Shown: one piece after another, positions 36,337 to 40,305 of the stretch | Layout of the letters: every line of letters begins with the position of its first letter | Position numbering within the stretch: the first letter of the stretch is position 1 | Assembly (NCBI RefSeq): GCF_008933165.1 | Contig: NZ_WBVQ01000001.1 | Span: 1,550,001 to 1,614,000 of the forward strand | Direction: 5' to 3' | Length of the DNA: 64,000 nt | Source of the DNA: Phaeocystidibacter marisrubri | GTDB taxonomy: Bacteria; Bacteroidota; Bacteroidia; Flavobacteriales; Schleiferiaceae | Position numbers and translations under genes: made by a program | Notes under the pieces: generated by a model | Databases searched by the model: none | What the model was told of the DNA's origin: nothing | What the model saw: the letters and a program-made list of their open reading frames with translations, nothing else

Positions 36337-38742
36337 ATGATAAAGTATATCTACACTTTGTTATTCATGGGTGTGTCTGCCATAGGCCTATCCCAAACCC
36401 TTACCGTTCTTGATGCAGAAAACGGTGAACCCCTTGAACTCGTCACAATCTTCAGTGAAGTCCCACGTGCTTATGCCGTCACCAATGCAGATGGGCAAGC
36501 CGATATCTCTGAAATGAAGGGATTCGAGAAAATTGAAATTCAAACCTTCGGTTATGCTCCTGTCATCACCACCTATCAAAAACTACAAGTTGAGGGTTTT
36601 AAAGTGAGCCTTGAACTGTCGCAGATGGGACTACAAGAAGTAGTAACCTCTGCATCGAGATGGCGTCAGACTTCGGACAATGTTCCGAGCAAAATCACCA
36701 CCATCTCACAACGTGAAGTGGCTTTTCAAAATCCCCAAACCGCCGCAGACATGTTGTCTATCTCTGGGCAAGTCTTCGTTCAGAAGAGTCAGCAAGGTGG
36801 CGGTAGTCCTATGATCCGTGGCTTTGCCACCAATCGTCTCCTCTACACGGTGGATGGCGTCCGAATGAATACGGCCATCTTTAGAGGAGGGAACCTTCAA
36901 AACGTCATTAGTCTTGATCCATTTGCTACTGAAAATACAGAAGTATTATTTGGACCTGGCTCGGTGATTTACGGAAGTGACGCGATTGGAGGAGTGATGA
37001 GTTTTCAGACGCTTACCCCGCAGTTATCGCTTGATGGAGAACCCCTTATTACAGGGTCTGCAACGGCTAGATATTCATCGGCCAATAGCGAAAAAACAGG
37101 GCACTTTCACATAAATGTCGGTTGGAAAAAATGGGCGATGGTCACCAGTTTTAGCACTTGGGATTTCGATCACCTACGTCAGGGCTCCAATGGTCCCGAC
37201 GATTACCTCAAACCCTATCATGTCAATAGAATAGACAGTACGGATGTGATTGTTACTCAAGATGACCCTTTGCTTCAAGTTCCAACGGCCTACTCGCAAA
37301 CAAACTTCATGCAAAAGGTTCGATTTAAGCCGAATGAAAACTGGAACTTTGAATATGGATTCCATTATTCAGAGACCTCTTCGTACGGAAGGTATGACCG
37401 ACACAACCGCATGAGAAACGGTACTGCTCGCTATGCCGAATGGAAGTATGGTCCGCAGGTTTGGATGATGAACAACCTGAGTGCCACGCATTATGGTCGT
37501 AATTCAATTTATGATGAAATGACTATACGTGTGGCTCAGCAACACTTTGAAGAGAGTAGAATTGATCGTTCGCTCAACAAGTCGGATCGCACCACTAATG
37601 CAGAAGAAGTGGAAGCGTACTCAGTTAACATTGATTTCAACCGAGAAGTAACTCCAGGGCATACCCTCTTTTATGGAGTGGAATACGTGACCAATCTCGT
37701 CCAATCAAGTGGTCGAATCACAGACATTACCACTGGAGCTGAATCCGTTGGTCCTGCACGGTATCCGCAATCCAATTGGACCTCTATTGCCATTTACCTG
37801 AACGATGAATATCACGTGAATGAGCATACGACGATTCAAGCAGGCTTGCGTTACAACCAGTATATGCTTAATGCCGACTTCGACACCACCTTCTATCCGT
37901 TCCCATTCACAACAACGAAATTGAACAATGGCGCATTGACAGGTAGCATTGGCGCTGTATACCGTCCTAGTCAAACATGGGTAATCAGCGCCAATCTGGG
38001 AACTGCCTTTCGATCACCAAACATAGACGACATTGGTAAGGTGTTCGATTCAGAGCCCGGTTCCGTTGTGGTTCCCAATCCGAATTTGGAAGCTGAGTAT
38101 GCCTACAACTTTGACGTGAACATCGCCAAGACATTTGGGAAAACCGTCCGAGTTGACCTTGGTGGCTATTATACATTCCTTGAAAACGCATTGGTCCGCC
38201 GAGACTATCAGCTTAATGGACTTGACAGCATGATGTACGATGGCATGCTTAGTCGCGTTCAGGCTATTCAAAATGCTGCTGAAGCACGCGTATATGGCGT
38301 TCAAGCGGGAATTGAAATTAAACTTCCAGCGGGATTCGGCTTCTCTACTCGAGTGAATTACCAGAAAGGTCAAGAAGAAATGGACAATGGAGAATTAAGT
38401 CCATCACGCCACGCTGCTCCGTTCTTTGGTACAAGTCGCCTGACATACACCGCGAATAGGCTTCAGCTTCAGTTGTATACTCAATACCAAGGGGAACAGA
38501 GCTACGACAATCTATCCGATAGTGAGAAAGGGAAGGATGAGATCTACGCCAAGGATGACAACGGCAACAACTATGCTCCATCTTGGTACACTCTTAACAT
38601 CAAAGCGGCTTACAATGTCACCGAAAATATGACCGTAAGCGCCGGAATCGAGAACCTCACGGATCAACGTTATCGTCCGTATAGTTCAGGCATATCTGGA
38701 GCGGGACGAAATTTTGTGATGTCCGTTCGAGCCAATTTCTAA
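36337..38742 (+). CDS. TonB-dependent outer-membrane receptor
   Basis: 801 residues with signal peptide (about 1-20). A CarboxypepD_reg-like domain (about 22-90) precedes a plug domain (about 100-230: DNVPSKITTISQRE, then SPMIRGFATNRLLYTVDGVRMN) and a 22-stranded barrel ending in Phe. The plug resembles the hemoglobin/heme receptor group more than SusC proteins, and there is no SusD partner. The ligand could be heme, another metal chelate or cobalamin. Followed by a strong terminator. Confidence 0.87.
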   Translation: MIKYIYTLLFMGVSAIGLSQTLTVLDAENGEPLELVTIFSEVPRAYAVTNADGQADISEMKGFEKIEIQTFGYAPVITTYQKLQVEGFKVSLELSQMGLQEVVTSASRWRQTSDNVPSKITTISQREVAFQNPQTAADMLSISGQVFVQKSQQGGGSPMIRGFATNRLLYTVDGVRMNTAIFRGGNLQNVISLDPFATENTEVLFGPGSVIYGSDAIGGVMSFQTLTPQLSLDGEPLITGSATARYSSANSEKTGHFHINVGWKKWAMVTSFSTWDFDHLRQGSNGPDDYLKPYHVNRIDSTDVIVTQDDPLLQVPTAYSQTNFMQKVRFKPNENWNFEYGFHYSETSSYGRYDRHNRMRNGTARYAEWKYGPQVWMMNNLSATHYGRNSIYDEMTIRVAQQHFEESRIDRSLNKSDRTTNAEEVEAYSVNIDFNREVTPGHTLFYGVEYVTNLVQSSGRITDITTGAESVGPARYPQSNWTSIAIYLNDEYHVNEHTTIQAGLRYNQYMLNADFDTTFYPFPFTTTKLNNGALTGSIGAVYRPSQTWVISANLGTAFRSPNIDDIGKVFDSEPGSVVVPNPNLEAEYAYNFDVNIAKTFGKTVRVDLGGYYTFLENALVRRDYQLNGLDSMMYDGMLSRVQAIQNAAEARVYGVQAGIEIKLPAGFGFSTRVNYQKGQEEMDNGELSPSRHAAPFFGTSRLTYTANRLQLQLYTQYQGEQSYDNLSDSEKGKDEIYAKDDNGNNYAPSWYTLNIKAAYNVTENMTVSAGIENLTDQRYRPYSSGISGAGRNFVMSVRANF

Positions 38743-38763
38743 TTGCTACACATTTGATACCTC

Positions 38764-38795
38764 AACCCCGACAGTTTTGTCGGGGTTTCCTTTTG
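38764..38795 (+). terminator. Terminator of the TonB receptor operon
   Basis: AACCCCGACA and TGTCGGGGTT form a 10-bp stem with a four-base loop, followed by TCCTTTT. Confidence 0.88.
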
Positions 38796-39043
38796 CTCCA
38801 ACTGGAAACGTATGTAAACGTATACTGTCGTTTGTACTCGATTAAAGCTAGGTTGGAAGGTTTGATTGGCGTAAGTTGTCACCAACGGGGAGGTGGGCTA
38901 ATTGTTTACCCACTAAGGATTTCTGCGAACATATGTCCCAATCTCACTTGGATAATTTGTTGAAAAGTCTCACTTCGTCTAAATAACGGAATAGGCTTCA
39001 GGCTAAGGGCGACGGCCTCCGATATCCTTACTTCAATCTCCAG

Positions 39044-39169
39044 TCATCCGTCATCCGTCATCCGTAACCCATCATCCGTCACCCATCATACGTCACCCAT
39101 CATACGTCATCAATCATCTATCACCCTCCACCCAGCATCCGCCAACCGTCACCCCGCATCCAACCCCTT
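39044..39169. repeat. Tandem degenerate 7-base repeats (TCAyCCn x18)
   Basis: Eighteen consecutive heptamers fit without a gap, starting with three exact TCATCCG, then TAACCCA, TCATCCG, TCACCCA, TCATACG, TCACCCA, TCATACG, TCATCAA, TCATCTA, TCACCCT, CCACCCA, GCATCCG, CCAACCG, TCACCCC, GCATCCA, ACCCCTT. Divergence rises towards the right end, where the period-9 array begins. Period 7 and stop codons argue against coding. Confidence 0.78.
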
Positions 39170-39219
39170 AAACCCCATAAACTCCTTAAACCCTACAAAC
39201 CCACTAAACCCACTATTAC
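39166..39219. repeat. Tandem degenerate 9-base repeats, second locus
   Basis: Six 9-base units follow the heptamers: CCTTAAACC, CCATAAACT, CCTTAAACC, CTACAAACC, CACTAAACC, CACTATTAC. Shifted by one base these match the CTnAAACnC consensus of the array at 173-253. Confidence 0.7.
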
Positions 39220-39282
39220 CTCCCCCACCCTGTAAGCTGAAACTATCAATGACGTCATTACTTTCATCAATAATCTTTGCCC

Positions 39283-39290
39283 TACTTTTG
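39283..39290 (+). promoter_or_regulatory. -7 box of trxB
   Basis: TACTTTTG matches TAnnTTTG 34 bases before the trxB ATG. A CTTTC at 39261-39265 is a weak -33 candidate. Confidence 0.5.
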
Positions 39291-39324
39291 GCAATAGAAA
39301 AAGTTCGATATCAAAATATAGGTC

Positions 39325-40305
39325 ATGAGCGACAACAATATTGAAAGACACGAATGTGTGATTATCGGTAGTGGTCCTGCGGGATATACTGCGGCAATTT
39401 ATGCGGCAAGAGCCGATTTGAAACCCATTATGTACACGGGAATGGAGCCTGGTGGTCAGTTAACCACCACCACGGAAGTAGAAAACTTTCCAGGATATCC
39501 GCAAGGAATTGACGGTCCGGCAATGATGGAAGACCTCAAAGCACAAGCTGAGCGCTTTGGTACCGATGTTCGATTTGGTCTCGTAACCGATGTACACTTT
39601 ACGGACATTCCGGGTGAATATCACACATTGACCATCGATCAATCGAAGCAGATTCAAGCCCGTTCAGTGATTATCTCTACGGGTGCTTCAGCAAAGTACT
39701 TGGGACTTGAAAGTGAGCAACGTCTTCAAGGCCACGGTGTTTCTGGATGTGCCGTATGTGATGGCTTCTTCTACAAGGGGGAAGAAGTTGTGATTGTAGG
39801 CGGTGGTGACACTGCCGCTGAAGAAGCAACTTACCTCGCCAAGCTTTGTCCGAAGGTAACCATGTTGGTTCGTCGCGATGAGTTGCGTGCATCGAAAGCC
39901 ATGCAACACCGAGTGATGAACAACCCGAACATTGAAGTGCTTTGGAATACCGAAACTTTAGAAGTTTTGGGAGACCAAGTGGTAGAAGGTGTTCGCGTTA
40001 AGAATAGAGAATCTGGAGAAGAAAAGGTGATCAAATGCTCAGGTTTCTTCGTAGCCATTGGTCACAAGCCAAACACAGATATCTTCAAAGGTCAGTTAGA
40101 CATGGATGAAGTGGGATATCTCAAAACTAAGTCAGGATCTACTTCTATGAACAAACCTGGTGTATTTGCTACAGGTGATGCACAAGACAAAGTGTATCGC
40201 CAAGCGATTACTGCAGCCGGTACAGGATGTATGGGAGCCTTGGAAGCAGAACGCTATTTGAGTGAATTTGAATTGGAGAATGCAGTAGCTGAAGCAGCGA
40301 ACTAA
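39325..40305 (+). CDS. trxB: Thioredoxin-disulfide reductase
   Basis: 326 residues. It reduces thioredoxin with NADPH through FAD. Motifs: FAD site GSGPAGYTAAIYAARA (16-30), redox pair CAVC (Cys142, Cys145), NADPH site VGGGDTAAEEA, and the second FAD segment GVFATGDAQDKVYRQ. Length is typical (310-330). TrxA is encoded 900 bases away at 41193-41540. Single gene with its own promoter and terminator. Confidence 0.96.
   Translation: MSDNNIERHECVIIGSGPAGYTAAIYAARADLKPIMYTGMEPGGQLTTTTEVENFPGYPQGIDGPAMMEDLKAQAERFGTDVRFGLVTDVHFTDIPGEYHTLTIDQSKQIQARSVIISTGASAKYLGLESEQRLQGHGVSGCAVCDGFFYKGEEVVIVGGGDTAAEEATYLAKLCPKVTMLVRRDELRASKAMQHRVMNNPNIEVLWNTETLEVLGDQVVEGVRVKNRESGEEKVIKCSGFFVAIGHKPNTDIFKGQLDMDEVGYLKTKSGSTSMNKPGVFATGDAQDKVYRQAITAAGTGCMGALEAERYLSEFELENAVAEAAN

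Follow-up and report, generated by a model that had tools for sequence, protein, structure and literature searches.

A heptamer tandem array upstream of trxB in Phaeocystidibacter marisrubri as a probable diverged member of a modular intergenic repeat family private to the species

The STRR of cyanobacteria are one class of heptamer tandem repeat. Other bacterial heptamer tandem repeats have been described as long simple sequence repeats, LSSR (Mrazek 2007, cited in PMC4679880), as TAACTGA repeats (PMC4679880) and as GGGNATC repeats, for which a preference for four units is given (PMC4692102), and the accessible portions of the literature on such arrays discuss slippage, G-quadruplexes and translational regulation. 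The array described here lies in a window of 64,000 nucleotides of P. marisrubri (contig NZ_WBVQ01000001.1, positions 1,550,001 to 1,614,000 of the forward strand; coordinates below are those of the window). The heptamer arrays of this genome resemble the LSSR, TAACTGA, GGGNATC and STRR heptamers, as far as those portions describe them, in having a period of 7, an intergenic location, many loci per genome and words which vary with the lineage. They differ in that a nonamer array is as a rule joined to them, in one order, and in many cases a palindrome as well, and in that we saw no preference for a position at the start codon or for four units.

The palindrome invites comparison with REP sequences and their transposases, RAYT or TnpAREP (PMC6006769, PMC3733652). 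Measured against the available parts of these two papers, the likeness consists in a short dispersed intergenic palindrome, present here in 53 copies, with a core that borders a transposase of this kind in a relative, and further in tandem modules and an orientation tied to GC skew. The differences are that in this genome no transposase was detected, that GTAG stands at the 3′ and not at the 5′ foot, that the copies of a cluster lie mostly on one strand and that they are joined to short tandem arrays. In P. fluorescens SBW25, direct REP arrays of regular spacing have opposite orientations on opposite sides of the chromosome (PMC3116915). The repeats described here are likewise direct, regularly spaced and side-dependent in their orientation, whereas SBW25 carries RAYTs, and the accessible sections of that paper do not mention heptamer or nonamer arrays. 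A literature search of open-access papers, in the portions of text that it returned, gave no description of a palindrome-heptamer-nonamer composite. The repeat class is an ordinary one and the combination is unusual.

The heptamer array and its neighbourhood

The heptamer array occupies positions 39044 to 39162 on the plus strand, where TRF, a relaxed-pattern search and unit-by-unit scoring located 17 units of TCAYCCR, all in phase and with 0 to 2 mismatches each. TRF scored it at 75 for period 7, 103 for period 14 and 110 for period 28, and a three-unit heptamer pattern allowing up to 3 mismatches gave 15 matches in the window, all of them within 39037 to 39161, against 0.26 expected from shuffles (largest shuffled count 2). 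Head-to-tail units of 7 nt beyond chance, as in repeats of the LSSR/STRR type, were thus found, and the gapless period-7 array which a preliminary description had placed from 39044 onward was borne out. Of the 18 units counted there, 17 stand; the eighteenth (39163 to 39169, ACCCCTT) has 4 mismatches and falls within an abutting array of period 9. Coding was rejected as the origin of the heptamer array on its period of 7 together with the finding that no ORF of at least 80 aa overlaps it, and the earlier statement that this period excludes coding is better put as making it unlikely.

An exact left end with divergence rising to the right had also been described, and this holds when unit counting begins at 39044 (Spearman rho 0.75; p 0.0006 in a one-sided permutation test), rho being 0.46 once an imperfect unit at 39037 is counted in. 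Both the exact left units with their significant gradient and an exact 14-bp repeat inside the array (TCACCCA TCATACG, present twice) are what one would expect of a simple microsatellite born on site by replication slippage and still growing at its left edge, an origin which we nevertheless judge unlikely. Against it, the gradient is not general: among the 33 arrays of at least six units in this genome, including the window array, divergence goes up in 20, down in 11 and is flat in 2. The left-to-right decay is real in the window copy, and there is no general polarity across the arrays of the genome.

The heptamer array abuts a nonamer array of (AAACNCCTN) on the same strand, at about 39161 to 39211. 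TRF, with periods 9 and 18, places the latter at 39162 to 39211 and merged pattern matches place it at 39161 to 39203, its end therefore being 39203 or 39211 according to the method; the two bases in which both arrays overlap are part of a junction, CCAAC, which can be read as either. To the left lies a gene for a TonB-dependent receptor (36337 to 38742, plus strand), with a terminator-like hairpin 3′ of it (38764 to 38787, plus strand) that lies outside the repeat. The right neighbour, also on the plus strand, is trxB (39325 to 40305), encoding thioredoxin-disulfide reductase (TIGR01292 above cut-off). The downstream border of the repeat is set by the region upstream of trxB at 39230 to 39324 (plus strand), a stretch of about 95 bp outside the repeat which begins with CTGTAAG, 18 nt past the nonamer array, and which is common to all three species of the genus in our alignment (G000, this genome, with G001 and G002). 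A second nonamer array was located by TRF and pattern search at 167 to 254 on the plus strand, and no heptamer array or palindrome was found adjoining it; a tRNA-Arg gene (anticodon acg, minus strand, 336 to 410) lies about 80 bp from this lone array.

A composite module dispersed through the genome

Genome-wide, we counted 37 exact three-unit heptamer matches (reversed control 0) and 29 nonamer matches (control 2), while the 53 copies of the palindrome CACGCGAAAGGATTCGCGCGGTAG were obtained with up to 2 mismatches (control 0). Read on one strand, the full module consists of the palindrome (CCACGCGAAAGGATTCGCGCGGTAG), a linker mostly of about 11 to 17 nt, (TCAYCCR)n, the junction CCAAC and (AAACNCCTN)n, often followed by 17 to 19 nt and often by the next palindrome. 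In the window and 25 further stretches together we counted 80 arrays of heptamers, 63 of nonamers and, allowing up to 4 mismatches, 55 palindromes; the array stretches had been chosen for holding arrays, and the palindrome stretches came from the genome-wide search with all 53 places covered. In this set a heptamer array of the same strand immediately precedes 42 of the 63 nonamer arrays, the remainder having the heptamer array downstream (6), on the other strand (5) or none within 60 bp (10). Nearly all palindromes (51/55) lie within 60 bp of an array, 38/55 have a same-strand heptamer array no more than 75 nt downstream, and just 4/55 have no array within 75 nt; 17/80 heptamer and 17/63 nonamer arrays are without a palindrome within 150 bp. 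Comparison stretches of the same genome, 300 kb in all, gave one heptamer and one nonamer match.

Individual clusters deserve mention. The clearest exception to the usual order is at L217:5400-7250, where minus-strand heptamer arrays alternate with plus-strand nonamer arrays. The most regular cluster seen, L252:4200-5000 (contig C2 of this genome, about 62.2 to 62.9 kb), is a tandem run of near-alike modules with 7 palindromes within 2 mismatches (8 within 3), mostly 108 bp apart. Two distant loci, L213:5400-6200 and L219:5436-5600, share by eye a piece of about 90 bp (CCCTAGGTAGCGTCGTTCCTCCTCA...) inside their composite arrays, which may be a further dispersed repeat. L332:11072-11194 (contig C1, about 1.211 Mb) carries an array of another word, approximately GGATMAR, with period 7 (56 in TRF).

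The junction CCAAC is common to different loci, and matches between loci are long, reaching 146 bp at 87%, which is evidence for copying between loci. Copying of a ready-made unit accounts for the window array better than slippage on site, since the composite order and the junction come back at many places, and independent slippage would not give two arrays with the same order and junction. Within the genome stretches examined, the closest match to the window copy reaches 77.8% across 153 nt; a copy so far from its nearest match looks old, which also counts against a microsatellite still growing on site. The proposal of a growing array with its young end on the left is thus not supported as the main story. 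We consider it probable that the array represents one diverged member of a modular intergenic repeat private to this species, REP-like, copied around the genome and reshaped by slippage, and likely without a host role.

By simple ORF calls the arrays are intergenic, lying between ORFs with a few overlapping small predicted ones, and occur in sense, antisense, convergent and divergent arrangements alike, no gene-orientation rule being seen. The C-rich/G-rich strand asymmetry of the array raises another explanation, in which the G-rich complement folds into a G-quadruplex affecting transcription or replication, as has been studied for GGGNATC heptamers. The 25 stretches carrying arrays or palindromes were indeed richer in patterns of this type, with 16 in their 316 kb against 1 in 300 kb taken from other stretches, but no such pattern occurs within 38743 to 39324, and the window array folds as DNA no better than shuffles. 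Exact runs of 2 to 6 units number 35, 18, 3, 3 and 1, with no peak at four, the preference given in the accessible part of PMC4692102. We regard a G-quadruplex element as very improbable.

The palindrome, a transposase in relatives and GC skew

The link between the REP-like module and a transposase comes from a relative, G028, in which a 185-aa gene is flanked on either side by the 17-nt palindrome core CGCGAAAGGATTCGCGC, once exactly and once with one mismatch. Its product scores above cut-off for NCBIfam NF047646 (REP-associated tyrosine transposase) and also matches Pfam Y1_Tnp. The palindrome thus flanks a RAYT gene in this relative, although among loci fetched by similarity to the G028 transposase the strict core, within 3 mismatches, was present at 1/20. 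In another genome, G005, a related palindrome flanks on both sides the gene of a protein 66% identical to the G028 transposase, the positions having been aligned by hand. The G028 protein carries the motifs NHVH, WR and YVHNNP. The TnpAREP table, in the portion of PMC6006769 available, lists WQ with YIxNNP for subclass 2.4 and with YIH[QN]NP for subclass 2.6, both subclasses including Bacteroidetes and the latter being flanked by atypical hairpins; judged by these motifs, the G028 transposase could belong to subclass 2.4 or 2.6.

A search with the G028 transposase protein gave matches in 11/88 genomes and none in this genome, G001 or G002. PF01797 matched in 23/88 genomes, with another type in G001 and G002, and had 0 matches in the present genome, which is 99.9% complete. 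Nor is the palindrome a typical REP in its details. GTAG-type REPs carry the tetranucleotide GT[AG]G at the 5′ foot of the hairpin, according to the accessible part of PMC6006769, while here the foot reads GTAG at the 3′ side on one strand and CTAC at the 5′ side on the other; with GTAG at the 3′ foot, it departs from the canonical GTAG REP. The palindromes occur mostly in same-strand runs within a cluster, not as the inverted pairs of REPINs.

We further compared orientation with GC skew, using a single boundary, placed at 1.05 Mb on contig C1 from samples of the skew, with positions entered by hand and overlapping matches within an array, heptamer or nonamer, counted a single time. The palindromes favour the strand of negative GC skew: in the negative-skew part 31 follow it and 4 run against it, and in the positive part 13 follow it and 5 run against it (p 1.5e-5). 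Because neighbouring copies are not independent, p-values for clusters are fairer, and palindrome clusters of 5 kb split 9 to 1 in favour of that strand in the negative part and 8 to 2 in the positive part (p 0.0055). The bias of heptamer arrays was weak (copies p 0.033, clusters p 0.13) and nonamer arrays had none (copies p 0.59, clusters p 0.55). In bacteria, negative skew usually marks the lagging strand. It is on the lagging strand that single-strand transposases of this superfamily work, as stated in the accessible part of PMC6006769, and the skew orientation of the palindrome fits, without proving, spread by a single-strand transposase.

The copies would in the past have spread as single-stranded DNA at replication forks, through a REP-associated transposase since lost, and slippage may then have altered the repeat numbers within arrays. 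The window holds no palindrome match with up to 3 mismatches, and the tie of the window copy to the transposase is therefore indirect; this copy may have lost its palindrome or may have been partial from the outset.

Distribution in relatives and consequences for trxB

The exact heptamer pattern was found in one of the three genus genomes and in 3/88 family genomes, this genome being one of them and the other two having 1 and 2 matches, while the reversed control word was found in 6/88. Across Bacteroidota the word occurred in 27/392 genomes (this one included) and the reversed control in 29/392, and among the matches listed the word occurs in several phyla. As the control is equally common in Bacteroidota, the heptamer word itself is not special, and these counts do not support selection specific for the word in that phylum. 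The commonness of the control also suggests that unrelated heptamer arrays often arise, which is in keeping with slippage on site. The palindrome was present in 6/88 family genomes, five besides this one having 1 to 2 copies each. Among 233 other loci outside this genome, the heptamer occurred at 122, many of which had been fetched by it, and the nonamer at one, where there was no heptamer. At the level examined, one genome per species, the composite is private to this species.

Other words occur in the sister species. In a 200-kb sample of G001 and another of G002 there were period-7 and period-14 arrays of other words, with period-8 arrays in G002 as well. A tandem repeat of 81 bp, with 6.2 copies and 95% matches, was noted in G001 at L308:11616-12117.

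A match to trxB was found in 79/88 family genomes. From these we examined 29 trxB loci of relatives with up to about 1.5 kb per side, less at contig ends, and neither array was present at any of them (0/29); the same array in relatives, which would have argued for a fixed functional element, was thus not found there. By eye, the slot upstream of trxB holds no array in G002 and holds other palindromes and another heptamer array in G001. Gaps beside trxB in G001 (L315, L064) contain a (GCCTCAA)n heptamer array, further arrays with a period of about 8, and palindromes, of which CACGGGCTAAAGCCCTGTGG is an example. In G001 and G002 a common gene precedes trxB (its two copies are 35% identical across 312 aligned positions, E 1e-40); it looks secreted and has no match in the present window; with a different gene upstream of trxB in the congeners, the slot from 38743 to 39324 looks like a synteny break.

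These comparisons bear on a further explanation, that the array is a cis-regulatory element of trxB, for example the site of a repeat-binding regulator, as suggested for TAACTGA repeats before start codons. Its position upstream of trxB on the sense strand, with the nonamer array ending 113 nt from the start codon, agrees with such a role. However, the arrays of this genome sit in every gene arrangement by simple ORF calls, neither array occurs at the 29 trxB loci while the sequence separating the array from trxB is conserved within the genus, and the interval 38700 to 39400 has no Rfam match at E up to 1. We hold a regulatory role at trxB to be most improbable. The window copy, as a diverged member of the dispersed module, would most likely do nothing for the host and sits just outside the conserved trxB promoter region. 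No host function of the array is supported, and it looks like a residue of mobile DNA rather than a gene switch.

For this window the result is a caution that the array should not be taken as a regulator of trxB. A bolder proposal, which we put forward at low probability, is that the heptamer-nonamer composite would itself be a kind of mobile element, in which a REP-like palindrome carries a pair of short tandem arrays as cargo. Such an element would be copied as single-stranded DNA in step with replication and would persist without a transposase of its own, with private words in each species of the genus. If true, it would link two classes which have been treated as separate, the REPs and the bacterial heptamer microsatellites. 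A dispersed module whose palindrome elsewhere adjoins a single-strand transposase and here follows GC skew offers a testable route for the spread of such arrays.
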